A stretch of 64,000 nt of DNA from Ulota crispa (lineage: Eukaryota; Streptophyta; Bryopsida; Orthotrichales; Orthotrichaceae), in contig OY987248.1 of the NCBI GenBank assembly GCA_963920765.1, forward strand, positions 14,356,539 to 14,420,538, written 5' to 3'. Both the position numbers and the translations under genes were made by a program. Under the pieces are notes generated by a model. That model worked only from the letters and a program-made list of their open reading frames with translations, had not been told where the DNA came from and made no database searches. Positions 1 to 58,206 of this stretch are shown here, in pieces. Every line of letters begins with the position of its first letter. Positions within the stretch are counted from its first letter, which is position 1.

Positions 1-2888
1 CTCCTCCATTTTAGATAAAGGGTCCACACGGAGTGGCCATTGAGGCTGCTCTTAGACTCTTAGAGTGTAGGACAGGGGTAGGGCCTCAGCAGGCACATGG
101 AGTGTGAGGACTATGAAGTCATTGGGATGAAGACCAACACCAAGGGGGGCCATGAATGGGGACAATGACCTTGTCCGGATAATGATTCCTCTGCACATTG
201 CCTTGTGAACATCATCCTCCAAAAAAGTGGTACATGAACATTTCAGTTCTACCCTGCTGCTGGAGTACGGCACTTGGAGTACTGTCTAGGTACCACAGTC
301 TTCTGTGGGGAAATATGTACATTTCCTAGTTTTGATGAATAGGTTCGGCAATGGCAGCTACCTAAAACTCATCTTTTTTTCTCAGTTGAAATCCATTGTT
401 TCTATTTACCATTCGGCACATTGCAGGCTTTTTGAATTTCTCATGGGCATGTTTCAAAAATGTGATGTATATGGTTGATTTTTTGTTATTTCTTCTTATG
501 TAACGTTTTCAAAGGGGTTCATGCATAATTTAGGGTTTTGTAACTTAGTGTTTTTGAGAGGAGGTGAATTTGATCAAGTCTTGGAGATAAGGATGTTGCT
601 TTTGGAAAATGTGTGGATTCAAAAGAGGGTTGGTGCGTTTTTCCAAAGGCTAGTTAGTACAACAAAACAACACATGTATCTCAACCCAACTCATAATTTT
701 GAGAATGAAGTAAGCCAAATAAACATCGAGCATCCTCTAAATTGAGTTTAATTAAGAAAGTCAAGTAGCTTAAGGCGTTAGCACTTAGCATATAAAAATC
801 AATACTTATATTTGTTTTTCCACAAATTTTTATCATTAGTGATAAACCAAACTCCTCATTTGGCCCTTCCAAAACAATTCTAAGCTTGGCGTCTAAATTC
901 TTACTCCAAATTCACATGCAATCCTAGTTTTGGAAGTCAAACTCACAAACAAAAAGAAGAAGAAAATAAACCATGGGCTCCTCTCACTTAATTGCCACTT
1001 TGTGTTACCTTAAGCTCTAGTTTGATTCTAATTTAATCTTAATTTTATACAATTTGTTAACGTATTTTTCCGGCAAACTTAAAATCCCCTTTGCTTAAAT
1101 CTGGAAGAATGAAACCACAAACGGTAAATATCTTAAGTAAATTGTGGGAAGGCCGGCCGCATTGCCAAGACTTTTGTATCCTCCCTAGTCGGTTTCCTAA
1201 TTTCTCATTTTGGGGTTGGTACCTCATCTAAATGTTTTCTATGTCACTCATAAATCTTCAATTTTTTTTGGCTAGGATGTAATTAAACCCCGGCACTCCT
1301 TGCACATTGCTAGGTACATGTCCATTGTCCCCAATAGGGTCTAGGAAATATTTGAGTTTTTTTTTTGGTTGATTTCCTTCAATTCCCATGTTGAACCAAT
1401 TGGATCTATTTTGGTTATTTTCTCTAATTCAAACTGTAAATAGTTTTCTTTTAGATTTTTGACTGGTTTTTCAACTGCAGTTTATAAATTGCAAACGTTT
1501 TTTTCTCATTTCAACTTGCTAGCTTTGAACTAGCCGCCACTTTTGACCGGACCTTGGCCCCCAATTCCACAAAAACTTTATCCTTTAACAACTACACTTA
1601 ATTGTGCATTTAGTTTGCCTTAAAAATTTGGCTACTCTACAAAGTTACCTCATGACTCATTGCTTGGCCACTTGGAGGTGCATGCCACTCTATAAGTAAT
1701 AGGATTTCACATGGTTTACAGTCTAGAAAACATCAATTTGTTTTTCCGCAACAAAAATTGTTGTTGCCAAATCCTTATTATTGTTAGAAATTGTTTACTA
1801 AATTGATAATTGATGAAAACTATTGTAATATTAGTAAGTATTTATACAATGTAAGATGCCAAGAAATTATTGTGGAACAACCTCACTGTACTATTTACTG
1901 GAGGCAACCACTTTTTGGTCACTTCTAGTGTATTTTCAAGTCCCTATTGTTAAAATTTTAACAAATTAGACTTAATCCTTTAACTCCTGAGCGCCTAGGC
2001 CAATTTCACCAAAATAGACCTACAACTTTGATGCATTGTATCTCGGTCAATCGGGTGATCCACAAAAAGTGATCATTGAAAATAGTGGAACACCTACTTA
2101 GAAAATGGCTTGCAAATTTTGGGAACAATTCAGAGTGGGAGATGGGGGATTATGACATTTGATCAAACAACATGTGATGACAAAATCTCATTTTTTGGTA
2201 GGTAGTTGCTATTTGATGAGTTTTACAAAATTCCATAAGCCTCGGATTCATCTCAAATTTTGTGAGCAGCAAGATTAGACGTGAATGCACACACTTGTAA
2301 ATTAATAAAGATTGCACTTCTTTTTATGTCAAGATTTAGGGCTTCAAATTGCTATTGCATGGAAAACATTGGCTGGCACATTTGGTGACGATTGCCATAA
2401 TAAGAGTTTAGAACATGCTTGAACCCTTGCCAACAACTTTCCCGCTACCCCAAAGCTTACACAAAGGAAGCTTGAAAAGGATATTGACTTGTTGCAACCT
2501 ATAAAACGTTGCTTGCCACCATGCCTTGTATGCTTGCCACCACTCTCTATATGGTGTTTCACTTAATAAAATCTCTTGCAACACTTGTACAACATTTGAC
2601 TTTCCTTGCCATTACCCCATTGGCATGGACAACTTGAATGCCGTCATAATTGTAGTTTATAGCAAGACCAAAAAGTTAGATCCAATCCCTCAAAACAAGG
2701 TTCAAAATCGTGGGAGACAATATATGAGGCGCTGGGGCGCTCATGGGTTAATGAAGTGGCAGTCACTTTCTAGTTGATCTTCTAATGTTGTTTCACAACC
2801 TTTGTTGTTGAAGCGTTGGACTTAATTCTTTAACAATTAGGCAACTAGTTTTTGGTAGATTCCTAGAGTTTTCTCGAAACCCTTGCAG
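1..2888. other. gene-free AT-rich stretch, old repeats
   Basis: No convincing gene is visible. The longest open frames are short, lack splice context and resemble no family I recognise. A minus-strand frame near 52-273 is open for about 70 codons but has no partner exons. The sequence is AT-rich and looks like decayed repetitive DNA. Confidence 0.5.
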
Positions 2889-3128
2889 TTAACCTCCAAA
2901 GGACAAAGCAGCCCTTTGCAATCAGGTCAATATAAGATATTTTTCTTGTATTTGGAGTGCATCCACACTTTTATTACACATGAGATCAACAAAGAAGCTA
3001 GAATATAGATCAATGATGTCCAAATGAGGTAGTCAAGATCCAAATTAAAACTTTTTGTTGGTAGCAAATGCCAATTATACAATACCATACATACTATGTA
3101 TTATGGTACCTAGTCCTTTAAGGGTTAA
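2889..3128. mobile_element. TTAA-flanked MITE, about 240-bp class
   Basis: The element is bounded by TTAA at 2889-2892 and 3125-3128. Its ends read TTAACCTCCAAAGGAC and CCTTTAAGGGTTAA, which are inverted repeats of each other. The interior matches the copies at 29330-29561 (same orientation) and at 48004-48238 and 57026-57265 (opposite orientation). It carries no coding capacity. A piggyBac-type origin is inferred from the TTAA flanks and CCC-starting termini. Confidence 0.7.
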
Positions 3129-5632: not shown

Positions 5633-5711
5633 TTAACCCCTAAATGCCCACAATATCAAATTTCAGTGTTGAAAACACCCAAATTGGGTGCCGTGGGCAT
5701 TTAGGGATTAA
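5633..5711. mobile_element. TTAA-flanked mini-MITE, 79 bp
   Basis: TTAA stands at both ends (5633-5636 and 5708-5711). The ends TTAACCCCTAAATGCCCAC and GTGGGCATTTAGGGATTAA are inverted repeats. The interior holds a second small palindrome, CACCCAAATTGGGTG. The same palindrome lies near the left end of the 662-bp element at 43845, so this looks like an internal-deletion derivative of that class. Confidence 0.75.
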
Positions 5712-11916: not shown

Positions 11917-12133
11917 CACTAGAAGAAAAACAAGGATAAACGATTGCCACAAATTGAAATGACTAGGTCACCATAACTGCCTTGCAATTGCACAAACAAT
12001 TGTACAACAACTGCACGACTACAATCTAGTCGTGCAATTTTTGTATAATTGTTTGTGCAGTTGCAAGGCAATTATGGTGACCTAGTCATTTCAATTTGTG
12101 GCAATCGTTTATCCTTGTTTTTCTTCTAGAGTG
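11917..12133. mobile_element. near-perfect foldback element with CACTA-like ends
   Basis: Two arms of about 100 bp pair almost perfectly, from CTAGAAGAAAAACAAGG at the left to its inverse at the right, around a short loop near 12015-12025. The left end reads CACTAGAAG and the right end inverts to CACTCTAGAAG. A target duplication is not clear. A transcript would form a long hairpin, which could be a small-RNA source. Confidence 0.8.
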
Positions 12134-29329: not shown

Positions 29330-29561
29330 TTAACCCCTAAATGTCTGAGCGTGCAGTTGTGACCAATAGAATAGAATACAAGGAGTTTTTTTGGTATTTG
29401 GAATAGATTCACACCTTTATTACAATTGAGGTCAACAAAGTAGTTGAATCAAAGTGGTTCTAGTGAGCTACTTGAGATCCCAAATTGAAATTTCTTATTG
29501 ATAGCAAATACTGATTATACGGCAGCATATATACTATGCTCTATGGCCCTTTAAGGGTTAA
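29330..29561. mobile_element. TTAA-flanked MITE, about 240-bp class
   Basis: TTAA bounds the 232-bp element (29330-29333 and 29558-29561), with termini CCCCTAAATGTC and GGCCCTTTAAGGG. Its interior matches the copy at 2889 and the inverses at 48004 and 57026. Confidence 0.72.
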
Positions 29562-34284: not shown

Positions 34285-34566
34285 TGTTGAGATAAGTATT
34301 CTATTAATACGCTCTTCACATAGTTAACTAGAGTTCATTAGAATTTACCTTAATAAAGGGATCCTATGGATCAATAGTAGAGAAGGACTTTTACTTTCTC
34401 TCTTTGATCTTCCCTTGTATATAATAGGCAAACCCTACTTGGATAATAACACTTGTTACTTCTTCTCCTTGCATACTTTGTTAAATCTCTTTTGTGTCCT
34501 CGTTGTGTTTTCTATTCCCAACACTTTCTTTAGAGTCTGTAACTCTATCACAGCTCTATCACAACA
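34285..34566 (+). repeat. left LTR of copia element
   Basis: This 282-bp direct repeat is paired with 39361-39642. It begins TG and ends CA and is followed by a primer-binding-type stretch (TTATCAGCA). Confidence 0.93.
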
Positions 34567-37500: not shown

Positions 37501-39360
37501 ATGACTATTGATGAAGCGATGCATCGCTCTGATTGGATGAAGTGAAAAGCGGCTATTGAGGAGAAGTATATTTCTTTGCGTAAGAGACAAGTTTTTGGAC
37601 TAATTATTAATAATCTTTCTTCTCGGCCTCTTGGATACAAGTTGGTATTTGTGCGCAAATGGGATGACAAATGATAAATCATTCGTTACAAGGTGCATTT
37701 GGTTGCTCAAGGTTTCACTCAAAAGTTTAGAGTTAATTATGATTCTACATATTCACCAATTATGGATTCTATTACTTTCTGATATCTTCTTGGAATAGTC
37801 GTACACACCACATTGAAAATGCGTCTTATGGACATTGTTACTGCTTATCTCTATGGCTCTCTTCATGATGATATTTATATGAAGGTTCCACTTGGCCTCA
37901 AAAACAATAAGCAAGTCACCTTTATTCCGGAAAATATTGTGGTGTCAAATTACAACGGGCGTTATATGATCTTAAACAATTTGGGCGCATATGGTATCAA
38001 CAACTGCGGAACTACCTTGTTGAGCATCACTTTATAAATGATCCATTGTTGCTATGTCTTTTTATTAAAAGAGATAACTATGGATTTGTGATCATTCAGG
38101 TATATATTGATGATTTAAACCTTGTGGGCACTAAATTTGCATGTATTGCAGCTATGGAGTTACTCATTCATGAGTTTGAGATGAAACTCCTTGGTAAAAT
38201 TACCTTTTGCATTGGCTTGCAAATTATTCACTTGAAAAATGGTAGCATATTTCTTTCCCAACAGGCTTATATAAACCAAGTATTGAAAATGTTTAATATT
38301 GCGGATGCTTATCCGTTATCTACGCCTATGGTTGGTCGGAGCAACAATAGTGAAGGACCTTATTGCCCTTACAAGGAGGAGGAACCCTTGGGTGAACAAT
38401 ATCCATACCTTGCTACGGTCAGAGCGCTTTTATATTTGGTTACATCTACAAGGCTTGATATTGCATTAGCAATTAATGTATTTGCAAGACATAGTGCCCG
38501 TCCAACACTTCGACATTGGAATGGTATTAAACATCTTCTTCATTATTTACAAGGGACTAAAGATTTGAAATTGCATTATTCTAAATCAATGAATCCTACA
38601 TTGGTTGGGCTTGCTCATACTAGTTATAAATTTGATCTCGCAATAGCCAAGTCTCAAACAAGTTATGTTTTCTTAAGGCATGGAGCTACTATATCTTAGA
38701 AATTGGTAAAGCAAACAATAACTATAACATCATCTAATCATGCAGAAATGATTGCTTTACATGAAGCTTCTAGGGAATGCATTTGATTGATCCATTGATA
38801 AGTTTATTTAAACAAATTGTAGATCACCATATAATGATTCCCCGACTATTTTATATGAAGATAATAGTGCTTGTGTTACATAAATGCAAGCGGGTTTTAT
38901 TAAAGGTGATCGGACCAAACATATTGATCCCAAATACTTCAGCTACACCCATGACTTGATTAAAGCGCAAGCACTTGAAATCAAGAAAGTCATATCGGCA
39001 GATAATCTTGCGGATCTCTTCACCAAAGCCCTTCCATTATGTACACATTGCCGATTTATTCATGGCATTGGAATGCAACGACTTAATACTTTAGAGCAAG
39101 AGATTCAAGAGGTTTGTATTGTAGTAACCTTTACCATCTTTCCATGGATTTTTTCCATTGGATTTTACCATGTGAATGGATTGTAAGGGGTATTGTATTC
39201 TTTTTCTTTCATCCATGGTTTTATCCTTGATCATCAACAAGGTTTTCCTGGATAAGGTTTTAATGAGGCAACAACTGTATATCTTACAAGATTACGGGAA
39301 TAATCATATAAAACATTATTGTTTAGGTCTACATACAACTATGTGTCAATCAAGGAGGAG

Positions 39361-39642
39361 TGTTGAGATAAGTATTCTATTAATACGTTCTTCACATAGT
39401 TAACTAGAGTTCACTGGAGTTTACCTTAGTAAAGGGATCCTATGGACCAATAGTAGAGAAGGACTATTACTTTCTCTCTTTGATCTTCCCTTGTATATAA
39501 TAGGCAAACCCTACTTGAATAATAACACTTGTTTCTTCTTCTCTTTACATACTTTGTTAAATCTCTTTTATGTCTTCGTTGTATTTTCTATTCCCAACAC
39601 TTTCCTTAGAGTCTGCAACTCTATCACAGCTCTATCACAACA
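39361..39642 (+). repeat. right LTR of copia element
   Basis: This 282-bp direct repeat is paired with 34285-34566. It is preceded by the purine-rich AAGGAGGAG and followed by the CAAAT target duplication. Confidence 0.93.
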
Positions 39643-39647
39643 CAAAT

Positions 39648-40576: not shown

Positions 40577-43500
40577 ATGGCGATGATGGAGCTGTGGAAT
40601 GGGGTAGTAGTGGTGGTGCTCACAGCCGTGATTTACCAGCTGGTGACGAAGCTGTTGTGGAATGGGTTGTGGGAGCCGCTGAGACTGCGTGGCATCATGG
40701 TCAAGCAGGGCGTCAAGGCATTGCCCTTCCGATTCCTGCTGGGCCAGGTACCAGAGCAGGCCGCATTTGTGGACAAGCTACCCGAGGTCGTGCCCATTGA
40801 GAGCTTCGCTGCTTTGGCACCCACTGTCACGCCGCAATATGCCCTCTTCATTCCCCGGTTTCCAGGTACTCATCCATCCCGGCACTCACTATTCTGGCCC
40901 GTTTGCGTAAGAGGTTTTCAGATGTCAAGTAATTAATTTGTGCGCGCATGTTGTGTGATGTGATGTGATGTCCAACCGACTGAGAATCTAGTTTTGAACT
41001 CTTGAAGTACTAATTCGGAATGAAACAGCTGCAACCTCAGTTAAATAGTACTAAAAAAAACCTAATTCTAAGATTGATTGCAAGGGATCCAGCAGCAATG
41101 GGAGGGTGACTTGCAATGTCCAACAATCTCTGCAAAAACTCAAATATTGCATTCCCTCCGTATCTCTAAAAACATCCAAAAAGCTTCCTTGCAAAGGATT
41201 AACTATGTTCTTAGTCTTTGTGCTAGTGACACATGCATTCTAGAATCAATACACCATCTATCATAAGTAAGCAAAATTTCCAAGTTTGATGTCGTCATTT
41301 AGGCACCCAAATTCCATGTAAAAAGTATCATATTTGTGCATGCAGCCAACTCCTTGTTATTGATGATTTAAAGATTAGTTGCAACAATGATACCTCACAT
41401 GGGCAAGGCCAAGCCTGCTAGGAGTGGAATGCTCTCTAATTGTTTAATTTGCCCCCATGAGATGAGATCATTGAAGATGGTCTCAGCTTTTGAAATTAGC
41501 TAAAGGGAGCATTTTAGTGGTACAAAGAAACGTGTCTGAATTGGACGTTTGTAGAGGGACAGAGGGAGTAGTATTGAACTTTGAAAATAACTAACGAAAG
41601 GCTCTAACGGAGAATATAGGTTGAAAAGTTAATAATTAAAAGTGGTGTCGTGTCGAGCGCATGCGTGCAGGCGAGAAGTATTTTCTGTACTGGTGGAGAA
41701 CACAGACGCGCCTGGTGGTGCGAGACCCGGAGATTGCGAAAGAAGTGTTTTTCAACCACTCCGACTGCTTAGAGTGGAGTGCGTCCAGGGTGTTTTTCCT
41801 GACTAAGGTGATTGGTCGAGGACTCGTGATTCTCACCGGAAAAAAATGGGCCACGGAGAGACGCACATTGAACCCCTTCTTTCACCAGGACGCTCTCAAG
41901 GTACGAAGATCAATACTCCCCAAATATGAATTGGAAAAACTGAGGGATCATTTTTTACTCTACCTTAATTTCACATCAGTAAATGTAGGCAAATCTATTG
42001 CTCAAAGGTTGTAATTATCAAAGTTATTGTAGGTAATCATTGAGACTTCACTATTGTACAAGAAAATGCATGCTTGTCTTTTTGTGATATGCTAATATAT
42101 ACATAATGACAAAAATAGTGAAAGTCTCAAAATTTACTATTTATCCCAATTTATCTAATATAGTGTTTGCAAGGATTAGCAAACATTATGGCTTTGTAGT
42201 GTTAGTCTTGGCTATGCCACTCAAGTTTTGCACATAAGAGGTAGTCACACCTTCTTTGAGAATGAAATTTCTATGAATAATGAAGAAGTTGAGTGGAGTG
42301 GAGAATAGGAGCGAAAGAAAGTCTGTACTTCTTTGTGGAGATTAAGGTGTGACTCCCCTTTTGTGGGTAGCGTAGAATAGAAAATGAGTTTACCTCAAAG
42401 AGGGTGATGCAGTAAGAAAAGCAAGTTGTATTTCCAACACTCAATTAAGGAATCCAAGTTCCAACTACAAGGAGGGTGAAAGCAAGAAGAATTAAATGAA
42501 AAAAGATACACATGGGTAAAAATTTCACATGCTAAATCTTCTTCATGCCCATTCTTCTCTTTTGGAAGTGAAGAGAGAAAATCCTCGATTTTCAAAGAAT
42601 GATACCTTGCAAATCAAGAAGAAGAGAGTGCCACTACACTGTGCTTTAAAGATTGAAAATAGGGGTGCAGAAGGTGTGACTACTACTCCTATAATTGTCA
42701 TACTCGACACTGGACCGCCTCCCGATTTGCGGGTCTGATTAAGGGCTAGCCTAGCCCCTATAAAAATTATTTGAGAATATTTAAAGACGCTCCAAAACAT
42801 TCAAAATCAACCATAGAATTCTTAATTTGTTCAACTTGTAATGGTGTTGATGAGCATATCCGTCCGTCCGAAGGACAGTCACCTCCTATCAATTGCCCTC
42901 ATCCACTTAACATGACAATCAAGGTTTGATTTACATAATTTGTACATGCATGCCTTGGGCATGCAGGGCATGGTGGGAAACATGGTGGAAGGGACTGCAG
43001 CGGAGATACACAAGTGGGAGCACATAGTGGCCGGAGCAGGGGGCTCGGGCTGAGATCGACGTGGAGGCAGACATTCACAAGATGTCTGGACGAGTCTTGG
43101 CGCTTACGGCGTTTGGTGGCGATTTCGAGGCAGGAGAGCAGGTCTACAAGCTCCAGATGGGATTGTCGCAGGAGCTGAACCAGATGATGAAGCGTGACGT
43201 GAAATCGTGGCTCATTCCTTTCTACAGGTGAACCTCTGTCGACCTCATTATAACTAAATCGTCCTGTTTACCCAAAGGTCTGAAATCCTGAGGAAGGTGC
43301 TGCTAGGTCATGGTTGTCACATTGGACCGCTTGTCCGTCTGCCCAAAGTGCCCGTATGAAATGCTCAATTTTGCTCATGGTCAGTCTGATGTAGTCAATT
43401 CATAGTTGACTTCAAAAAATGATAAATAATGATAAAAACAAAAATTATATGTTGGTGACATTCATTGTTGCCTACCACAACATTAATACGTGGATTTGAA

Positions 43501-46110
43501 AGTCAAATCAAGTATTAAAATTGAAAAATAGTAATTTGAGTCTTCCTTTTTAGGTCAAAAACCCTACGAATACACTAAAAAACACAAGGGAACATACAAG
43601 CACCAAATAATGCAAGCAGATAAGGAAAATTTGGATAGAAATGGATAGAATCATTGACTTGTGCACGTTCATTTGTAAAATACACAAATTTTAGTAGCTT
43701 TCATGCATGTTTTAGCAAATGTTGTGATTGCTTAGGGAGGGACTTGGCAATTTCATTCATTTTTTCACATGATTCTTTGAGTGTTATGGTAACTACTAAC
43801 TAATCCAAAATTGAGATAAGATTTAGGCAAAATTTGCCAAGAATTTAACCCCTAAATGCTCAAGGCACCCAATTTGGGTGTTTGCAAAACTTTGAAGACA
43901 AATAATATCTTATCAAATCACTATTTTTGGTACTTTCTTTTGAACACAAGTTTGTTTTGAAATCTATTTTCAACATCAAAAATCTGATTTTGAAAATGAA
44001 TGTTCATGATTTTTCTATTCAAGATTTTGTACAAGGGTGTCCACTGCAATCTTGAGTTTTCTAGTGTTGGAAGATCTTGAAAATGAGCCTCAAATACACT
44101 AGAGCTTGGAGAAAAATCTGCCTTAGAAATCCATTTAAAAAAAAAAAAAAACAAGAGTAGATTTTGAAAGCCGTAAATTGGTTGAGTTTAAACATGTAAT
44201 GACCTTAAACCTCATATTTTTTTGATGACCAACTTTTTAGATTTGACATGTGAAATGAGGATTAGAAAACTTTAAGTCACTTTTGCAATTTTAACACCCT
44301 CATGTTCAAATGTTATAATCTTTCAAACTATAAGTGATATAGTTGAGTTTTCTTTTTCCATGTAGTCTCTAACATGTCAAGTTTAAATTTGTACGGTTAC
44401 AGTTTAAAAAAACTTGATAAGATTTATGAAAAGGTCAATTGATTGTTCACTTTCCTGTAAATGCCAAGTTCAAGTTCAGAAAGGCCTTGGGCATTTAGGG
44501 GTTTAAGGCTGCGCCTGTGTCTGACAGCCACAGCCAAATCTTACACGAAGTAACAACCCTGCAGTGCTTAGGTATTCATTGAGTAGTTTTTTTGGAGTGA
44601 CTTGCAGGAAAATCCCCACGAAGCGACACAGAGACGTCGACCAGAAGGTATCGAACATCGACGCTTTGGTGCGCGGGCTTATACAGAGCCGACTTGATGC
44701 CGTTCGCGATGGAGATGCCAACTCTTTGGGCAACGACCTGCTGGGACTTATGCTCCACGCAGCGACTGAGGGATGGCAGGAAGATACCACGGAGTTCAAC
44801 CTGGCGTCCGTGCTCAACAATGGCAAGCTGTTCCACTTCGCTGGACAAGACACCGTTGCCAACAGCCTGTCCTTCGTCATGCTCATGCTAGCTTTGCACC
44901 CCGACTGGCAACACCGTGCTCGCCACGAAGTCCTGCAGGTTCTCGGCCACGACGACGAGAGCTTCAATGCTAGCGTCTTATCTCGTCTGAAAGTGGTAAA
45001 ATCCCTAGTCCCCTCCTATATATAGTGCAAGACACCATAAATCAGCAAATTGTTGTTGACCAAAAATGTCAAATAGGAAGGTGAGTTTTTTTTTGGCAAA
45101 CAATAACTTCAATCAGTTTTTGTAAACTTTATTCTAAGACCTTCTTGCTCATAGTTACAAACCAAGAGTTTCATTGAGGGGTGCTATGAACAACCCATAT
45201 ATGGTTGTTACTTGTTAGGCTTTTGTTGCTTGCCTTATGCTGTCGTGCATCATACTACCTACAACGCAGTCATTGCATTGGTACATTCCAAAATCCTAAA
45301 TGTATTGGGAGGATGTCGCTACTCTAGACAAGGATGATCATGCATGGTGGTGAGCCAAGTTTTCTGGTTTGGGTTTAGGTCAGGCTTGCAAATTGTCACG
45401 TAAGGAACCAAGTCATTTGCAAAACCATTTGAACCAACTCTTAATATAAAACCTTGACGTTCAACTGATGACCCAATTCTAAGAGCTAATTAACCAATCC
45501 CATTGGTCCATCTTGATGGTTTTTAAATTAGGCCATCAAATAGGGTTTTGATACTATACAGAGTGGCTTTAACCTAATCAAGAATGTCTAGAATTGAATT
45601 GATCTAAAATTTGGTAATCTAAAGGAGAGAAAAATGGCAAACCTGGTGCATAAACTGGATGGGATTGTGGGTGGGTGTTTTCAGGTGGGGATGATAGTGA
45701 ACGAGACAATGCGGTGCTTTGCACCAGCGCCATCGATATCCAGAGTGGTGAGCAAGGACATGCAGCTGAAGAGCTTGTTCATTCCCAAGGGCATGACGAT
45801 CGAGTTGGCGGTGGTGGCCCTGCACCAAAGCAAAGAGTTCTGGGGAGATGACGTGGCGGAGTGGAACCCTGAGAGGTTTGCGCAGGGCGTGGCGGGAGCT
45901 TGCTCGCACCCGCAAACGTTCTGTCCGTTTGGGCTGGGTCCTAAGATCTGCATCGCCAACAACTTTGCCATGATGGAGATGAAGTTGCTCTTGGCTCGAG
46001 TGCTGCGCAGGTTTGAGCTCGTGCCATCTCCGAGGTACAGGCATCACCCCACCGCTGTCGTCACCATGAAACCCAAGTTTGGCTTGCCTATCACTCTCAA
46101 AGCTCGATAG
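40577..46110 (+). CDS. cytochrome P450, CYP72-clan type, one apparent frameshift
   Basis: Five exons: 40577-40865, 41671-41900, 42967-43227, 44608-44995 and 45685-46110 (TAG), about 530 residues after allowing for one extra base. An N-terminal membrane anchor (VVVVVLTAVIYQLV) is followed by a Trp/Pro-containing linker typical of microsomal P450s. The I-helix reads AGQDTV (about 338-343), the K-helix ETMR (396-399) and the PERF motif NPERF (450-454). The heme loop is CPFGLGPKICIANNFA with Cys478 as ligand. Family members are heme-thiolate monooxygenases of the ER membrane; the substrate is unknown. Exon 3 is out of frame by +1 after the five-G run at 43039-43043. Dropping one G restores the conserved reading, so this is either a recent null allele or a base-call error. 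In the heme loop the usual Arg is Lys and the Gly after Cys-Ile is Ala. Intron 3 hosts a 662-bp MITE. Confidence 0.88.
43845..44506. mobile_element. TTAA-flanked MITE, 662-bp class
   Basis: TTAA bounds the 662-bp element (43845-43848 and 44503-44506), with termini CCCCTAAATGCTCAAGG and CCTTGGGCATTTAGGGG. It shares collinear interior blocks (TTTCTATTCAAGATTT, AATGAGCCTCAAATACAC) with 46201-46862, which has the same length. It is located in intron 3 of the P450 gene. Confidence 0.75.
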
Positions 46111-46200: not shown

Positions 46201-46862
46201 TAACCCTTAATCCAACCCCAAAGCGTCATTGGGGACAAAAACTGTCCTCCATCAATTTTTGGAGTTAAATAAACTCAACCAAATTATTATTTTTAGTAGT
46301 TTATATTTTTAAAATTTTATTTGAAGCTTAGTTTTAGATCCAACAATTTGATTTTGCAAATGATTGAGTATGATATTTCTATTCAAGATTTAGTGCACAG
46401 GTGTTCATTGCAATCTTGATTTTATGTAGTGTTGAGGGCTCTTGGGAATGAGCCTCAAATACACCAGATCTTTAAGAAAAAATCACATCAAAAATTCTTA
46501 AAAAAAAATTGTAGAGTAGATTTTGAGAAGTCATAAATTGGTTGGGGTTATGCTTGTTAGGCCCTTTAACCTCATATTTTTTGGTGACCAACTTTTTAAA
46601 TTTGACATGTGAAAAGAAAATTGAAAGACTTCAAATCACTTTCACAATTTTAACACCCTCATGATCAAACATTATAATCTTTCAATCCATAAAAGATATT
46701 GTTGTGCTTTCTTTTCTAATGAGATCTCTAACATGTCTAGTTTGATTTTATACGATTACAATTAAAAAAAAAATTGATACAACTTATCAAAATATTGCTT
46801 TTTTTTTCAAGTTAGAGCAAATTCCTAGAAGCCCTAGAAATGCAATGTCACTTTGGGGTTAA
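46201..46862. mobile_element. TTAA-flanked MITE, 662-bp class
   Basis: This copy lies between TTAA at 46201-46204 and 46859-46862 and is a sister of 43845-44506. The ends are more diverged (CCCTTAATCCAACCCCAAAG and CACTTTGGGG). It abuts the next element and shares the TTAA at 46859. Confidence 0.68.
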
Positions 46863-47800
46863 CCCCTAAAGGACCATTGTCCCTTCGGGGAACAAGTTGG
46901 ACTTTGGGCATGTACCTATGGCTAAGCTACTTTGTGTGATTTTTTGAAACTTTTATTGAAGGTGGGGAATTCAAAGATCTATGTGGGCATCTAGTTTTTT
47001 CTTCATTCCAACATTTGATGAAGAAGTTATGCAAGAATTTGTGAAAATTTGGGGAGCACTGCCCGCCCGGGCAGCCCAAAAACTTCTTTAAAAATTACAT
47101 TTTTAAAAAATTAAAATTTGAAATTGGTTCTTTAGATTTTTTTTACAGGTGAGAAGCTTTGAATCATTCATTTCAATCAATGACATGAAAATTATGAGGA
47201 GTTTTTGTTTGCGGGTGGTAAGTTACAAATTCTCTACTCTAAAATAAATTTTGAAGTCATTTATTTTACTCAATTTTCAATATTTTGGAAAAAATACATA
47301 ACTAAAAGAAGTAGATTGTTTATCACAACATTATGACCGTTGGGATTTGCATTTTTCATTTCAATAATTAAATTCTTAACAATTTAGTATTATGAATCAT
47401 TCTCTACTTCTTTTTACTTAATAAATTTTCCCATATGTTGTATAGTTCCAATTGATTTGAAAATTCTCCCACACATACCTAACTTGATCTCCTACATGGA
47501 AAAAAAAGTGCAACTTTGGGTAGAGCAACTTTTTTGTTATAAGAGTGGTCAAAGGCTTCTAAAATTTTTGGGTTGCATGGAAAAAAACTTTTTTTTTCAC
47601 TTTAGACGTAGATATCTCACTCCTCTTCATCCGAAATGAGCTAATTTTTTTTCCCATAAGTACCTCTTCTAGTTTGGGGCAAGATCCTACGGTTGAATTT
47701 CCCAAAAACAAAAAATTAAATCCCTTTTTACTAAACCTCCTAGAAGTGGCAGTTTTTAGTGATTTTCACAGAAAAAAGGGCAGGGTCCTTTAGGGGTTAA
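46859..47800. mobile_element. TTAA-flanked MITE, about 950-bp class, copy 1
   Basis: TTAA stands at 46859-46862 and 47797-47800. The termini are CCCCTAAAGGACCATTGTCC and GGGTCCTTTAGGGG. Its interior is shared with 48472-49406 (direct) and 50272-51243 (inverse). It has no sizeable reading frame and is probably a deletion derivative of a larger element. Confidence 0.78.
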
Positions 47801-48007
47801 AGGACCATAGGGCACAATAATTGGTATTTTCTATATGTAAGAAGTTTTAATTTGGGATCTCAAGTAGCTCACTAGAATTGCTTTGATCTATTCTCCAACT
47901 TCTTTGTTGATCTCAAATGTAGTAGAGGTGTGGATCCATTCCAAATACAAGAAAAATACCTCGTATTGTACTGGTCGTAGAGCTATGCTTAGTCCTTTAG
48001 GGGTTAA
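47797..48007. mobile_element. TTAA-flanked MITE, about 240-bp class, left end clipped
   Basis: The interior matches the 240-bp class (AAGTTTTAATTTGGGATCTC and CCAAATACAAGAAAAATACC). The right end is AGTCCTTTAGGGGTTAA. The left end begins directly at the TTAA shared with the previous element, as if that element had inserted into the TTAA that lies within this class's own terminus. Confidence 0.62.
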
Positions 48008-48238
48008 GAGACCGAGCTACTATAATACATACTATGTACGTTGTTGTATAACTGGCATTTGCTACCAACAAAAAGTTTTAATTTGGGACCTTAACTACCT
48101 CACTAGAACATCATTGATATATATTCTAACTTCTTTGTTGATCTCAAATGTAATAAAGGTATGGATGCACTCCAAATACAAGAAAAATACTTTGTATTAT
48201 ACTGGTCGCAAAGGGCTGCTCAGTTATTCAAGGATTAA
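48004..48238. mobile_element. TTAA-flanked MITE, about 240-bp class
   Basis: This copy continues head-to-tail from the previous one through the TTAA at 48004-48007 and ends at TTAA 48235-48238. The interior contains ACTATAATACATACTATGTA and ACAAAAAGTTTTAATTTGGG, shared with 57026-57265. Confidence 0.65.
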
Positions 48239-48471
48239 GAGTTTGGGGTACTTGAAATTTTTGAACAATTCCAAAAAAAAGAATCTGTAGGGTTAGCCTT
48301 TCAACAAGCTATCATGGAATGTCATTTTTGTGGGAAAATGTATTGTGAATTATTTTATATAAAAGGGTAAAGTTGTAGCTCATAGGGTCCCTATTAGCAG
48401 CTTTAGATTAGCCTTGAAATTGCTTGGGGGTGTTCCTATAATGGCACTTGACAGTCCTAATTCCAACCCTC

Positions 48472-49406
48472 TTAACCCCTAAGAGACCATTGTCCCTACG
48501 GGGGACAAATGGGATTTTGGGGATGTACCTATGGCTAAACTACTTTGTGTGATTTTTGAAACTTTTATTGAAGATGGGGAGTTCAAAGATCTGCATGGGC
48601 ATCTAATTTTTCCTTCATTTTGACAATTATTGAAGAAGTTATGCATGAATTTTTGAAAATATGCAAGATCGAGTAGCCAAAAACTTAAATTTTTTTTTTT
48701 TTCAAAATAAAAATCCAAAATCGGTTCTTTAGATTTATATATATGTGGGGAGCTTTGAATCATTCAATTTGGATTTATGAGTGAAAAGTTTTAGTTTGCG
48801 GGTAGGTATGGGACTCCCATAATTCCTTTCTTTTGCCTTTGGTACTTTACTTGTTTGTGCTGTTTGTGAATTTGTTTTTTGGCTTCTTTTTTTTCCAAGT
48901 TTTAGTAGACTAAGATTCCTTGTTTTTTAACATTTGGATCAACGTAATTCATATTTCTCAATTTTACATAAATCCTCCAATTTTGCCTAGTGTATTTGCA
49001 AATTTCATGGCCTTACGGCATTGCAAGATTTTACAAAGTATGATTCACACCTCCAATTCATTTGAAAATTCTCCCACGCTTACCTAACTTGGTCTTCTAC
49101 ATGGAAAAAAATAAACCTCAACTTTGAAAAGCAATTTTTTTGATTTAGGGGCAATCAAAGGCTTTTGAAATTTTTGGGCAGTAGGGAAATAAACTTTTTT
49201 TTTCACTTCAAATGCCAATATCTCACTCCTCTACTTCTAGAATGAGCTGATTTTTTTCCCACAAGTACCTTCCATAGTCTAGGACAAGATCTTACGGCTA
49301 GATTTCCAAAAATAATTGTTTTTCCTACCTTTCTACTCATTCCCCCAAAAGTGGCAGTTTTCAGTGATTTTCACAAAAAAAAAGGGCTTGGTCCTTTAGG
49401 GGTTAA
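48472..49406. mobile_element. TTAA-flanked MITE, about 950-bp class, copy 2
   Basis: TTAA stands at 48472-48475 and 49403-49406, with termini CCCCTAAGAGACCATTGTCC and TTGGTCCTTTAGGGG. It interrupts a dispersed repeat whose other copy (28940-29290) lacks the element at the equivalent place. Confidence 0.78.
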
Positions 49407-50271
49407 AGAGTCAAAGCAACTCAACATATGACATGTGGCAAAATTTTCTTGTACAAGCAGCACTCACTACTCCACTTTGGGTTCAAGAGTGGACAGTGAA
49501 CACCTCAAAAGTAGGGTGCGGAATTGGGGAGCGGTTGGGAATGGTTGTGTCTACTTTAGTGCATTTAGGTTGCCTTACTGAGGCAAAATTACCTCATGAC
49601 TCATTCTTGGCCCTCTAGACGTGCATACAACTCTATTTATACTACAATAATTTTTGGTATTGTGTAAAGTTCACGCTTCTTTACTCCTTAACTTTGACAT
49701 TTGTTGTTGCACCTACCCTCTACTTGCTTCCTCTTGACTTTGACATTTTATTGCTGTGTCCAACCTCCACTTGCTTCCTCCATTGTTTATCAAAGTAATT
49801 ATTCACATGAGTTACTGTAGCCTTTGTAAATATTGAAATAATGTGGAATGTCAAGAACTTAGTATGGGGCAACCTAAATGCACTATTTGGTGTGTGCAAG
49901 CTTGGTAAGGTCCGTGCAAGCTCGGTAGGGTCCGTGCAAGTTCCGTAGGGTCCATGCAAGCTCGGTAGGGTCCGTGCAAGTTCCGTAGGGTCCATGCAAG
50001 CTCCGTAGGGTCCGTGCAAGCTCGGTAGTCTCGGCATGTCAGTGCCCGAAGAACCGCAACTTGCAGTCTTCATTGCAAAGAGCAAACCTCCAAAGAGATT
50101 TCTGCGCCTCATGGCCCTGCCCTTTGTTGGCTTTGGACCGCAGGGAGGACTTTGCATCAACATAAAGGTATCTTCAGAAGGTAATCCTGATTAGAAAAGC
50201 AAACTAGTGCTACTGAGACAAAACCTTTTGTAATACAGTTACTTGTTCCTTGTATACGTACCATTTAACTC
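49407..50271. other. repeat flank with short tandem array
   Basis: The first part (to about 49560) continues the dispersed repeat also found near 29211-29290. The 20-bp array at 49891-50028 follows. No gene is supported; the open minus-strand frame across the array is a periodicity artefact. Confidence 0.5.
49891..50028. repeat. 20-bp tandem repeat, about six units
   Basis: Units of the form CTCGGTAGGGTCCGTGCAAG repeat about six times from 49901 to 50020, with partial units outside. Alternating variants (CTCGG/TTCCG/CTCCG and CCGTG/CCATG) suggest a higher-order duplication. Confidence 0.93.
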
Positions 50272-50289
50272 TTAACCCCTAAAGGATCA

Positions 50290-50330
<41 letters not shown>

Positions 50331-51243
50331 TGGCCAAAATCACCGAAAACTGTCACTTCTAGGGGATCAGTGAGAAGGTAGATTTTTTATTTTTATTTTG
50401 GAAATCCAATCGTAAAATCTTGCCTTAAATTAGAAGAGGTACTTGTGGGAAAAAATTTAAGTCATTCTAGATGGAGAAGAGGAAGATATTTACATCTAAA
50501 ATGAAGGAAAAAGTTTTTTACATTGCTGCCAATAAATTTCAAAAGCCTTTGACCACCTTTATATGATAAAAATTGCTCTTCCCAAAGTTGCACTTTTATT
50601 TTTCCATGTAGGAGATCAAGTTAGGTATATGTGGGAAAATTGTCATATCAATTTGAACTATACAACACATGCAAAAAAATAGTAAGTAAAAAGAAGTAGA
50701 GAATGAGGCAAAACACTAAATTGTTATGAATTTGATTATTGAAATGAAAAATGCAAATCTCAAAGGTTATAATGTTGTCATAAAAAATCGACTTCCTTTG
50801 GTTTAATTTTTTTTCCAAAAGATTGAAAATTGAGTAAAATGAAGGACTTCAAAGTTTATTTTAGAGTAGAAAATCCATAACTACCTGGAAACAAAAACTC
50901 CTCATAACTTTCATCTCATTGATTGATATTTAATGATTCAAAGCTTCCCAAGTATAAAAATATCTAAAGAACTGATTCTAAATTTTTATTTCTAAAAAGT
51001 AAAATTTTTGAAGAAGTTTTTTGGGCTCCCCAAATTGCCCCTCCTCCCCTAGTTTCAATAAATTCTTTTGCGTAACTTCTTTTTCAAATGTCAAAATAAA
51101 GAAAAAACTAGATGCCCTTTTAGATCTTTGAATTCCCGACTTACAATAAAAATTTCAAAAAATTACACAAAGTAGCTTAGTCAAAGGTACATGCCCAAAG
51201 TCCCATTTGTCTACCAAATGGACAATGGTCCTTCAGGGGTTAA
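50272..51243. mobile_element. TTAA-flanked MITE, about 950-bp class, copy 3 (inverse)
   Basis: TTAA stands at 50272-50275 and 51240-51243. The termini are CCCCTAAAGGATC and GGACAATGGTCCTTCAGGGG. The interior is the inverse of copies 1 and 2. It contains a T homopolymer of about 38 bases at 50292-50329, which may be an assembly-sensitive spot. Confidence 0.76.
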
Positions 51244-51902
51244 ACATCTAAAGGACCCTATACAAGGGAATTGATATGTGTACCACACTCTTTCAGTTAT
51301 TGTACCACACCCTAGAGAATATTTTAAATTTCTACCATTAAATAGCTAAATTTGAGAATTTGGAATTGAGATTTGGACTTAGAGACCATGAATTAGTCTA
51401 GAACCATAAAAAGTTGCATTTCAACAACATCCAATGAAATTTTTTTTTTATTTTGTTTTTTTATTTTTTTATTTTTATAAACAAAAGTAAAAGTAACACT
51501 TTTTTCCCTAGCTAAACTTTTTTATTGGGTGCTGTTGAATTGTAACTTCTTTTTTTTTTGGTTCTAGACAAAATCATAGTCTCTAAGTCCAAATTTGAAT
51601 TCAAAATTCTCAAATTCAGCTTTTTGATGGTAGAAGTCTAAAATTTTCTTTGGGATGTGGTACAGTAAGTGAAAGGGTGTGGTACACATATCAATTCCCC
51701 CTATACAATCAATACAAAACAAAATATTTTTCTTATATTTGAATGAATCCACATCTTTACTATATTTGAGATTAACAAAGAAGTTGAAATTTAAATAAAC
51801 TTATTGAGCTATTTGAGATCCCAAATCTAAACCTCTTATTGGTAGCAAATGCTATTTGTATGGCAATGTGTCTATTATCCCCATGGGACATTTAAGGGTT
51901 AA
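51240..51902. mobile_element. TTAA-flanked MITE, about 240-bp class, interrupted
   Basis: The outer element runs from TTAA 51240-51243, shared with the previous element, to TTAA 51899-51902. It is split by a 434-bp insertion at 51266-51699. Outside that insertion the sequence matches the 240-bp class (AAATATTTTTCTTATATTTG and CTTATTGGTAGCAAATGC). Confidence 0.72.
51266..51699. mobile_element. Mutator-type MITE family B, nested
   Basis: Long inverted-repeat arms of about 175 bp start GGGAATTGATATGTGTACCA and end with the inverse. A perfect 9-bp duplication, CCTATACAA, flanks it (51257-51265 and 51700-51708), as in Mutator-like elements. It inserted into a TTAA-flanked MITE and must be younger than it. 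Confidence 0.9.
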
Positions 51903-54550: not shown

Positions 54551-57500
54551 ATGTCTCATCTTCTGAGACCATCTTCAAAGTGGACGATCTTGCGGAGAGC
54601 TCTGCAGCTCAGTTGCTCCGCATGTCACTCCCCAGGCTGTGACTCGCAACCTTACAATGTATTCCAGATACGTGAGTATTGTCGGCCTAGAAGCTCACAT
54701 TCATTGATCGAGGGAAAGAAGTGGCGATCGTCGGCAGAGGAGGGATACAGGGAAGGGCGCAATTTTGTAAGTGCATGCCTAGAGCTTTATATTTTTGAAT
54801 TATTTTTTGTATATTCTCGCGTCAAACAACCTCGTCATGTAAGTGTGGCCATGATTATCATTTCCTTACACTGTCAATAAGATCAGCAACTTGCAGGAGC
54901 TTGAAATTTGAGGATAAGCATGTTGGACGTAGTGAGATTCGTGGATGCATGCTACAAGAAAATAGTGTCCGAATTGACACGTCCTATTTGACTAAATGTG
55001 TCCAAATTGACAAAAAAGTGTTCTATTTGACAAAAGAATGTCCTAATTGACATGTCCTAATTGACAAAAATTGGCTGAATTGACAGTGTTCCCTTGCATG
55101 CATTTCGAGTGTGAATCATGAACCTTGGATTCATTGATTTCTCAGGCATTTGGTAGGCTTTTGTCAACAGAGTGTTCATCACCACCTCGGGAAAGAGTGG
55201 ACTGTGTGGTTGTGGGTGCTGGGGTCGTGGGTCTTGCGGTTGCAAGAGAGCTTGCATTGGCAGGACATGAGGTTTGGGTAATTGAAGGAGCTACAGACAT
55301 TGGAACTGGTACAAGCTCTCGCAACAGCGAGGTTGTGCATGCGGGCATCTACTATCCTCAAGGTTCTCTAAAGGTTTGGATGCAGCTGTGCAGTAATTAT
55401 GTACTCATTTTTTTGTATGTTCTCTGATTATGGCCACATTCTTGTAAGGAAGCATGCATTGTTTATAAAGAGCTTAGGATCGTGAATCATTACTTTAGTT
55501 TTAACTTGTTTTATACTTGTGCTGCAGGCAAAACTATGTGTAGAAGGAAGGCAGGCGCTATATTCCTACTGTGAAGAAAATGGAATTCCTTTTAGGAAAG
55601 TTGGAAAGTTGATTGTTGCCACTCAGGACAGTCAAGTTCCTATTTTGGAGAACTTGATGAAGGCTGGGAAGGAAAACGGTGTGACTGATTTACGACTTAT
55701 GGAGGCTACTGAAGCTAAAGAGTTGGAACCCCATTTGCACTGCGTAAAGGCATTATGGTCACCTTCATCAGGGATTTTGGACACTCATTCGTTCATGCTC
55801 ACATTGCAAGTACGGTATTATACGCGCATTAACCAATGATATGTTCCCTCCCAATGTGTATTTTTTGTAATTACTTGCCTCACATGCTTTCCATGGATTA
55901 CTCTTCCAAACGTACGTACTAATTAAGAGTGAATGGAAAAGCTTGATTTTGCAAAATAGGAAGGAGAGTTGATTATTCATGTTTTCTTCTGTATCATTTG
56001 CAGGCTGATGCTGAAGAACACGGAGCTTCATTTGCTTTTAATACATCAATGTTAAAGGGTGCAATTACCAAAAGGAATATTGAGATTCATGTTGGTAGTA
56101 CAGATGCTCTGCTGTCGTCTTCTGGTATGCTCACACATTCGCTCATCCTTTTACGGACTCATTTATCAAAATCACATCCATTATGGGCATACTTGAAGGG
56201 AAGGACCTAGTTCATGACAGATGCAGATTCCGCATTGTACATGTTTTATGTTATCGTCGTTGGGAAGTTTATGTCATTTTTTATGACGGGCTTTATGAGA
56301 ATATTGCAGAGAATGGAGTTACTGCAGTCTTGTGCGCAAACCATGTTGTCAACGCTACGGGTCTTTACGCTCAGTCATTGGCGAAAAACTTAAATGGATT
56401 GCCTTCACATACTATACCGGACAGTTATTATGCAAGGGGATGTTATTTCAGTTTGTCAGGAGTCAAGTCTCCTTTCTCACATTTGGTTTACCCCATTCCT
56501 GAAGACGGAGGGCTTGGCTGTCACGCGACTCTGGACCTCCAAGGCCAAGTAAAGTTTGGACCAGATGTTGAGTGGCTCTCAAGTCTGACAAATTGTGTAT
56601 TACCCCACACAATGTGAGTTTTTACAGACAAAACTCACTGATGTATGCTCTATATTAACGCTTAGTTTAACAGCAATTACCGAACACTTGGCATGTGTGA
56701 TTTGATTTTCATTCTAGTTTGAAAAATCCCTTCCTTTTGTGCAGATTTGACTATACAGTCGGTCCTGGTAGGGCGGAGAATTTTATTACGAATATTCGAA
56801 AATACTTCCCTTCATTGCCTGATGGATCATTGCAGCCAGATTACTCTGGCATTCGACCCAAGTTATCTGGTCCCAGTCAGCCAGCAACTGACTTTCTAAT
56901 TCAGGTACCTTTCTCTATTCAAACTTCGGAACCTTCAGACCTTGAAATGCTGATACAAATATCCAATCATGATTTCATATGGTACACTGTAGATACACAA
57001 AATCGAAGTTTTAGAGGTTACCTCTTTAACCCTTAAAGGTCGGGGTTACTATAATACATACTATGTACGCTGTTATAACCGGCATTTCCTACTAACAAAA
57101 AGTTTTAATTTGGGATCTTGACTACCTCACTAGAACAACAATGATTTATATTCTAACTTCTTTGTTGATCTCAAGTATAATAAAGGTGTGAATGCACTCC
57201 AAATACAAGAAAAGTACTCCATATTGTATTGGTCGTAAAAGGATGCCTTGTCCTTTAGGGGTTAAAAGTAAAGGCATCATGTCCTCTTAAAACAATAAAC
57301 TCATGTCTTAGAGGTTATCATAAGAGCATCTGCACCTACACACGCGTAGGGACTTGCGCACACAATAATTTGATGATAAATGCTTAGGGCCTTGAAAGTG
57401 TTCTCTTGACACTCAAATTGAGCGAGTCAAACAATGGCCCTTGAAATTACTATTCATTCTAAGTTTAGTGAGCTCTATCTTCTACTCCACTTGATGATGA

Positions 57501-58206
57501 TTGGTCAATTAATTATTTGTGAGGCCAATCAACTATTTGTGGAGCATGCTTGAAGAGCAAGGGTAGGGGACATAAATTTTGAGGGCTCTCCAAAAGTAGT
57601 TGGAAAAACTTGGCGAGTCACAAGGTTGCGTGCAAGGGTGCAAATGCTCAAATTGATTATAGGGAAAGTTTCATGGATACCCCTGAAGTTTGCAATAATT
57701 TCATAGATACCCCTGTTTTTTCAGAAATATCACATACACTCTTGGACCAAAATTTTCAAGCATTTTTTTGTTATGCATTCCACTTCCCTTCCTCCTTTGT
57801 GCACTCACATAACAAAAAAAAGTAACGTGTGCACAAAGGGAGAAGGGAAGTAGCATGCACAACAAAAAAATGCTTGAAATTTTTGGTCCGGAGTATCTGT
57901 GAAATTTCTGAAAAAGCAGGGGTATCTATGAAATTATTGCAAACAGGGATATCCATGAAATCTTCCCTCGATTATATCATTCCATAGTGGGAGTTCTATG
58001 CAATTAAACAATTTGGGGTTAAATTCTTGTACTATTGCCGTCGGCTCCCCCCTCACTACTTTGCGTACACGTGGCATGTGAAGGGTGAAGCAGATCATGG
58101 AATCCGAGGCCTTGTGAATTTGTACGGAATCGAGTCACCTGGCTTTACAGCGTCTTTGGCCATAGCAAAGGTGGTGCATGCAAAGTTGATGAACCAAGAG
58201 GAGTGA
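54551..58206 (+). CDS. L2HGDH: L-2-hydroxyglutarate dehydrogenase, mitochondrial
   Basis: Seven exons join in phase to 477 residues: 54551-54766, 55146-55373, 55528-55809, 56004-56124, 56310-56613, 56745-56904 and 58084-58206 (TGA). The length fits the family (about 480 in Arabidopsis). The N-terminus [20 protein letters not shown] is basic and amphipathic, as in mitochondrial presequences. The FAD-binding Rossmann motif [15 protein letters not shown] begins at about residue 93. [26 protein letters not shown] and [18 protein letters not shown] are family signatures. The enzyme oxidises L-2-hydroxyglutarate to 2-oxoglutarate using FAD, a metabolite-repair reaction. The last acceptor (CATGTGAAG|GGTGAA) has a poor pyrimidine tract but gives the only conserved join. 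The 1179-bp last intron holds two MITEs, 57026-57265 and 57662-57967. Confidence 0.93.
54951..55088. mobile_element. CACTA-type MITE fragment
   Basis: The left end CTACAAGAAAATAGTGTCC lacks a clean CACTA start. The interior repeats TGTCCAAATTGAC-like words, and the right end stops at GACAGTG. It resembles the element beside the P450 start at 40493 and lies in intron 1 of the L2HGDH gene. Confidence 0.5.
57026..57265. mobile_element. TTAA-flanked MITE, 240-bp class, best-preserved copy
   Basis: TTAA stands at 57026-57029 and 57262-57265. The termini CCCTTAAAGGTC and TTGTCCTTTAGGGG are clean inverted repeats. Its interior aligns along its length with 48004-48238. It lies in the last intron of the L2HGDH gene. 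Confidence 0.78.
57662..57967. mobile_element. Mutator-type MITE family A, copy 5
   Basis: This 306-bp copy begins GGGAAAGTTTCATGGATACC and ends with a slightly diverged inverse. The flanking 9-mers TTGATTATA and TCGATTATA agree at eight of nine positions. It lies in the last intron of the L2HGDH gene. Confidence 0.87.

Follow-up and report, generated by a model that had tools for sequence, protein, structure and literature searches.

The locus considered here raises the question of which transposition system produced a head-to-tail block of short non-coding elements in the moss Ulota crispa, and whether the block calls for an explanation of its own. The block lies at positions 46201-51902 of a 64,000-bp stretch of contig OY987248.1 (14,356,539 to 14,420,538; hereafter the window, from a whole genome of 274.8 Mb), and ~4,594 of its 5,702 bp are taken up by seven elements, which belong to families A (935-972 bp), B (~211-240 bp) and D (651 bp). 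An earlier interpretation made from the letters alone (the sequence-only reading) had seven non-coding elements filling most of this interval, which is borne out, and had proposed that they are miniature inverted-repeat transposable elements (MITEs) of possible piggyBac type in a plant. The host is indeed a plant, and the piggyBac assignment is supported by PF13843 transposases in elements with such termini and by paralogous empty sites that read TTAA or differ from it by one base; the elements are best explained, with a probability of roughly 0.93, as non-autonomous piggyBac-superfamily MITEs mobilised in trans by piggyBac transposases whose genes lie elsewhere in the moss genome.

With up to one mismatch allowed, the window has 21 occurrences of the terminal pattern TTAACCCYTAAA, against a shuffle mean of 1.36 (0/100 shuffles reach 21); across the whole genome the exact pattern is found 39,919 times, against 792 for a reversed-pattern control. 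In the MITE families, and in nine transposase elements described below, most ends start with CC[C/T]; the exceptions are CTC at one end of MITE F and of element L040, and decayed copies. CC[C/T] is also the end motif given for piggyBac (PMC2872659; papers cited by PMC accession are represented here by excerpts of their text).

Transposase-bearing elements elsewhere in the genome

The piggyBac domain PF13843 (DDE_Tnp_1_7) has at least 120 matches in the genome with a best E of 1.3e-73 (116 of 528 first-look candidates scored); the hAT dimer domain has 39 matches, a shorter model whose count compares only loosely with that of PF13843. None of the PF13843 matches listed lies inside the window, in agreement with the earlier remark that no transposase is visible there. 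The sequence-only reading had also suggested searching for longer elements with such termini, and PF13843 transposases were found to be carried by elements elsewhere in the genome: of 13 loci viewed at ~8 kb, nine have the transposase enclosed by inverted TTAA-C ends 5-7.5 kb apart. The ends of L047 were paired by eye because they differ by a one-base shift.

Element L042 is 5,746 bp long with TTAACCCCTAAATGCC at both ends; over 37 bp its transposase-side end is 89% identical to the left end of MITE D1 (43845..44505, forward strand, 661 bp, right flank TTTA) and 86% identical to one end of MITE E (5633..5711, reverse strand, 79 bp). The terminal CCCCTAAATGCC is common to L042, to both ends of most E copies and to one end of D1. 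Ends similar to the termini of families A and B occur in a clade comprising L013, L027, L036, L046 and L047 (58-72% identical), namely CCCTTTAGGGACC in T13, which extends L013, and CCCTTAAAGGACC at one end of L046; L044, which extends L027, has the end CCCTCTAACGTC, unlike the A/B-type ends of its clade.

The open reading frame (ORF) of L047 matches DDE_Tnp_1_7 at 6e-60, and its only PDB matches at E<=0.01 are piggyBac of Trichoplusia ni (T. ni; 6x67, 3.6e-20) and piggyBat of Myotis lucifugus (9c0f, 1.4e-16), the latter differing from the moss ORF in its remote sequence and mammalian host. In these two matches the catalytic (DDD) positions are aligned to 6x67 and 9c0f; across 33 loci of the genome, D occupies the three columns in 30, 25 and 28, and 13 of the 16 exceptions are N. 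The C-terminal motif CxxC-x8-CxxC-x5-C-x3-C-x4-H or a close variant is present at 13 of 30 loci, at a near-constant distance from the domain start, and at 0/30 on the other strand and 0/30 on the 5' side; from this Cys/His motif a C-terminal cross-brace zinc domain is predicted. Identity among 16 transposase loci compared falls to 27%. An AlphaFold model of the L047 transposase from 6 sequences has a pLDDT (predicted local distance difference test) of 33.

Locus L048 (3811-4908; the same as L019) holds an open 365-aa transposase frame in which DDD is present, and a C-terminal Cys/His motif lies nearby; no TTAA-CCC ends are recognisable in the 9 kb examined, and it could be a decayed element or a domesticated gene.

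Palindromic ends and internal TTAA

In the transposase elements and in the MITEs alike, one end features a palindrome near bp 25. Palindromes were scored as six base pairs around each centre and compared with shuffles; for the transposase-side end of the nine elements the summed score at centres 24-26 is 37 vs 24.25 in shuffles (p 4e-4), and for their other end 24 vs 23.7 (p 0.52). The mean profile of the transposase-side ends peaks at exactly 25.0, and a score of 5/6 at centre 24-26 is reached by five of the nine (L039, L044, L046, L047 and T13). All seven MITE families reach at least 5/6, at one end only (36 vs 22.6, a value attained in 0/4000 shuffles), with a scan peak at 25. Among the ends that had played no part in forming the idea, three of four transposase ends fit (L046, L047 and T13; L045 does not). 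The palindromes differ in sequence, and include GGACA/TGTCC, CACCCAA/TTTGGGTG and TTGTCCC/GGGACAA, among others.

In the left end of T. ni piggyBac, bp 17-33 are bound by a dimer of the cysteine-rich domain (CRD) (PMC7351741), and the palindrome position in the moss matches this stretch. Together with the TTAA target, the DDD transposase and the C-terminal Cys/His domain, the palindrome near bp 25 of one end is a likeness to T. ni piggyBac (6x67/6x68; PMC7351741). The moss system is unlike it in its plant host, in elements of 5-7.5 kb, in a palindrome whose sequence varies between families, and in several transposase lineages within one genome, some only 27-40% identical. The CCC end found here is presumably also that of T. 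ni piggyBac. The comparison suggests that moth and moss have the CRD palindrome at a conserved position, with a sequence that varies; the C-terminal domain of each transposase would bind the palindrome in a family-specific manner.

Transposase-bearing elements are also poor in internal TTAA, as judged against an expectation computed from trinucleotides. Observed/expected is 0.61 in the nine bounded elements (72/119), the lowest of 256 tetramers, and 0.58 in 24 other transposase loci (145/250), again the lowest, with CGAA/TTCG level at 0.58; outside the elements it is 0.97 in the flanks and 0.96 in the window, and the controls gave 0.86 (copia), 0.93 (plastid) and 0.89 (a short P450 stretch). 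Over 30 loci the domain has a ratio of 0.69, compared with 0.45 for the sequence 3' of it and 0.49 for the sequence 5' of it, part of which may be coding. Codon bias was rejected as the sole cause because the loss is stronger on the 5' and 3' sides than in the domain; taken by part, the loss is weaker in the nine bounded elements (5' 0.72, P 0.047; 3' 0.66, P 0.016). The MITEs do not share the loss as a general rule: family A has 38 internal TTAA vs 94 expected and E has 1 vs 7, in copies that are not independent, and no loss is seen in B (39 vs 21 expected) or D2 (27 vs 28). The simplest reading of the loss would be selection against self-insertion.

The mechanism suggested by these features can be outlined as follows. 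A transposase dimer would bind the terminal ~16 bp of both ends, and at just one end its C-terminal domains would form a dimer on the palindrome (bp ~17-33); the element would be excised seamlessly and inserted at TTAA. A new copy landing on a TTAA that already flanks an older copy would create a junction with one TTAA in common, and internal TTAA would invite self-insertion, leaving transposase-bearing elements poor in that tetranucleotide. It is judged slightly better than an even chance that the genome records a long-lasting, multi-lineage moss piggyBac radiation, with a private palindromic address for each family, located at bp 17-33 of one end and recognised by that family's own C-terminal domain, and with loss of internal TTAA from the transposase-bearing elements through selection against self-insertion. 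If so, the element's choice of target has itself removed TTAA from its interior; this loss would be a statistical signature of self-insertion avoidance, testable in any piggyBac-rich genome.

Plants have been named in passing as piggyBac hosts (PMC3902484, PMC10813416), and piggyBac figures in lists of angiosperm MITE superfamilies (PMC10004981) and of plant superfamilies (PMC10794571) and in a repeat table of Ceratopteris (PMC6890710); the last three carry the same label as the moss elements and, in the excerpts, are list or table items without a described transposase or element. Among the matches listed from the open-licence literature, none describes moss piggyBac transposases. The superfamily is known; as far as could be seen, the host, the scale and the two quantitative signatures are new. 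One genome combines at least 120 PF13843 matches in several deep lineages with ~40,000 exact MITE-type ends, and it provides a natural plant system for piggyBac.

Shared junctions, target sites and alternative explanations

The block begins with D2 (46212..46862, forward strand, 651 bp, ends CCCCAAAGCGTC / CCCCAAAGTGAC, palindrome GGACA..TGTCC near bp 25), flanked by CCAA on the left and TTAA on the right; a start at 46201 was rejected and placed at ~46212 because other copies of the family start at TTAACCCCAAAG or a variant of it. A1 (46859..47800, forward, 942 bp) has one TTAA in common with D2 and one with B2 (47797..48007, forward, 211 bp, left end decayed), which in turn has a TTAA in common with B5 (48004..48238, forward, ~235 bp, right end read by eye). 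A2 (48472..49406, forward, 935 bp), the family A reference, is followed by A3 (50272..51243, reverse, 972 bp, with a long poly-T near one end), and A3 meets B6 (51240..51902, reverse, 663 bp). The claim that adjacent elements share one TTAA therefore holds at four junctions (D2/A1, A1/B2, B2/B5 and A3/B6). The earlier picture needs correcting at B6, which is a class-B element of ~230 bp, split and enlarged by a different, nested MITE at ~51266-51699. This nested MITE has GGGAATTGATATGTG... inverted ends and CCTATACAA on both sides; the 9-bp flanking repeat suggests a Mutator-like element, under the size rule that is presumed to assign 9-bp duplications to that group.

Tandem duplication or slippage, rather than separate insertions, is the alternative origin of such a block that survives best, and it is still improbable. 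Coral CMITEs, which like the moss elements are TTAA-flanked MITEs with CC[C/T]T ends, a piggyBac link and sometimes an arrayed arrangement, have had their tandem arrays explained by slippage (PMC2872659), and at all four shared window junctions both elements have the same orientation. Sixty copies were fetched, 20 per family for A, B and E, taken in rank order from the 40 best-scoring matches of each family; the exceptions are L066 and L108, included because a neighbour was visible in their rows. Class-B copies have a neighbour on 8/40 sides (7/38 without L066) vs 23/999, above expectation; over all three families, without both L066 and L108, the neighbour count is 8/116 sides (p 0.011). Against duplication, neighbours are often of other families (D2/A1, A1/B2 and A3/B6 in the window; D with A in L002, D with B in L004, and A with an E/D1-type end in L098), the left neighbour is from another family in 3/7 D copies, both relative orientations occur outside the window, and exactly one TTAA is kept at each window junction. 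That members of different families have a TTAA in common is a difference from the coral arrays.

The genome-wide count points the same way. TTTARGGG-TTAA-CCCYTAAA occurs at 573 places (reversed control 0), whereas ~254 would be expected from 39,919 ends and a TTAA total of ~1.57 million, estimated by applying the window density to the genome; the excess is ~2.3-fold. Reuse of TTAA by chance would account for roughly half of the shared junctions, and the remainder may come from local clustering. A special mechanism for head-to-tail blocks was mostly dropped because the excess is only 2.3-fold on an extrapolated TTAA count, and the block needs little special explanation. Pairwise divergence of copies is 9.2% in A, 8.9% in B and 7.1% in E, figures biased low as only top matches were fetched.

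A second alternative, considered very unlikely, is that the elements are MITEs of another TTAA-duplicating superfamily, Kolobok or Sola3 (the latter presumably also with a TTAA target), and that the piggyBac transposases of the genome are unrelated to them. A TTAA duplication is not specific to piggyBac, as it is also made by Kolobok and is seen in the T2-MITEs of Xenopus; these have RR termini such as AG and another transposase (PMC6004289), whereas the family termini here are CCC. Over their terminal 37 bp, D1 and E match a PF13843-bearing element, and the palindrome of one end lies at the piggyBac CRD position. For E and D1 this alternative is largely refuted, no search aimed at a Sola or Kolobok transposase having been made.

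The target itself was read from flanks and from empty sites. In the 60 copies TTAA is found on the left in 55/60 and on the right in 56/60, with varied sequence beyond, the queries for A, B and E themselves having carried the flanking TTAA; seven family D relatives of D2, found with a query lacking TTAA at the element edge, have it on the left in 7/7 and on the right in 6/7, and one copy is truncated. C2 (33409..33773, forward strand, 365 bp) has CTAG on both sides; therefore all four bases appear to be duplicated. For the empty-site check that the sequence-only reading had proposed, the flanks of 83 insertions were joined and searched for paralogous sites in the sequences analysed; 7/83 have a spanning match elsewhere, and the readable empty sites hold one TTAA or differ from it at one base. 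L105 and L068 both have a single TTAA, in a repeat copy at window 41307..41570. The same TTAA in different copies of this repeat has been hit by two MITE families, B in L068 and A in L105. The weakest alternative, that the true duplication is TA (Tc1/mariner) or TAA/TTA (PIF/Harbinger) with TTAA as preferred context, has in its favour that both are contained in T-TA-A and T-TAA, but it is scarcely tenable against the four-base CTAG pair of C2, the full TTAA flanks of most copies and the piggyBac transposases carried by elements with such ends.

Several observations weigh against the assignment of the MITEs to the piggyBac transposases of this genome, or against parts of it. The control for PF13843, with matches in 0/14 genomes, is weak, the one genome named being a cyanobacterium; no matched ends were seen at 4 of the 13 loci viewed at ~8 kb (L041, L048, T23 and T37); and, with a bearing on any present activity, stop codons are present in 110/120 PF13843 rows, and L047 has N as its third D. 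Only L042 ties a transposase to particular MITE families (E and D1) beyond the terminal ~13 bases, and the link to A and B consists of those ~13 bases. The palindrome was first spotted by eye in some of the ends tested, and scores are lower in L042 (4), L043 and L045 (3) and L040 (2). Both single-TTAA empty sites depend on one repeat copy; the empty site reads TTGA for L077 and TTAG for L088, the matches for L074 and wA2 are too poor to read, and that for L062 was set aside, its flanks being themselves B elements.

Remaining elements and other features of the window

The window as a whole contains 15 elements covering ~7,541 of 64,000 bp: the seven of the block together with F, B1, E, C1, B4, C2, D1 and B3. 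The sequence-only reading had counted about fourteen; those it listed stand, and the fifteenth is F (1980..2751, forward strand, 772 bp, ends CTCCTGAGCGCC / CCCATGAGCGCC). Its statement that the flanking tetranucleotide is TTAA in all but one was slightly optimistic, as TTAA is present on both sides in 12/15, on one side only in D1 and D2, and replaced by CTAG in C2. The elements not described above are B1 (2889..3128, reverse, 240 bp), C1 (11467..11825, forward, 359 bp), B4 (29330..29561, reverse, 232 bp) and B3 (57026..57265, forward, 240 bp), the last being the family B reference.

Other repeats lie among these elements. Just downstream of C1, window 11919-12129 is a 211-bp near-palindrome, 94% identical to its own reverse complement, and between A2 and A3, window 49895-50028 consists of short tandem repeats of GGTCCGTGCAAGCTCGGTA type. 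A family of ~320-bp elements (window 7296-7625, 8623-8947, 57661-57968 and 3290-3612), three of the four matching their own reverse complement, is apparently another MITE type. A possible copia-type element at window 34285-39643 is bounded by two direct repeats, 34285-34567 and 39361-39643, that share 94% identity; by eye, the frames between them look polyprotein-like. Elsewhere in the assembly, plastid psaA and psaB are on contig C157. Among solved structures its PsaB comes closest to 8htu, 6l35 and 7ksq (1714-1710 bits), which score above 9lut (1676) and 7wfd (1632); 7KSQ and 8HTU are photosystem I (PSI) structures of P. patens (PMC10005731), and 6l35 is presumably from that species too, in keeping with a moss host. 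A further 46 psaA/psaB matches outside C157 are on chromosomes and are apparently nuclear plastid DNA.

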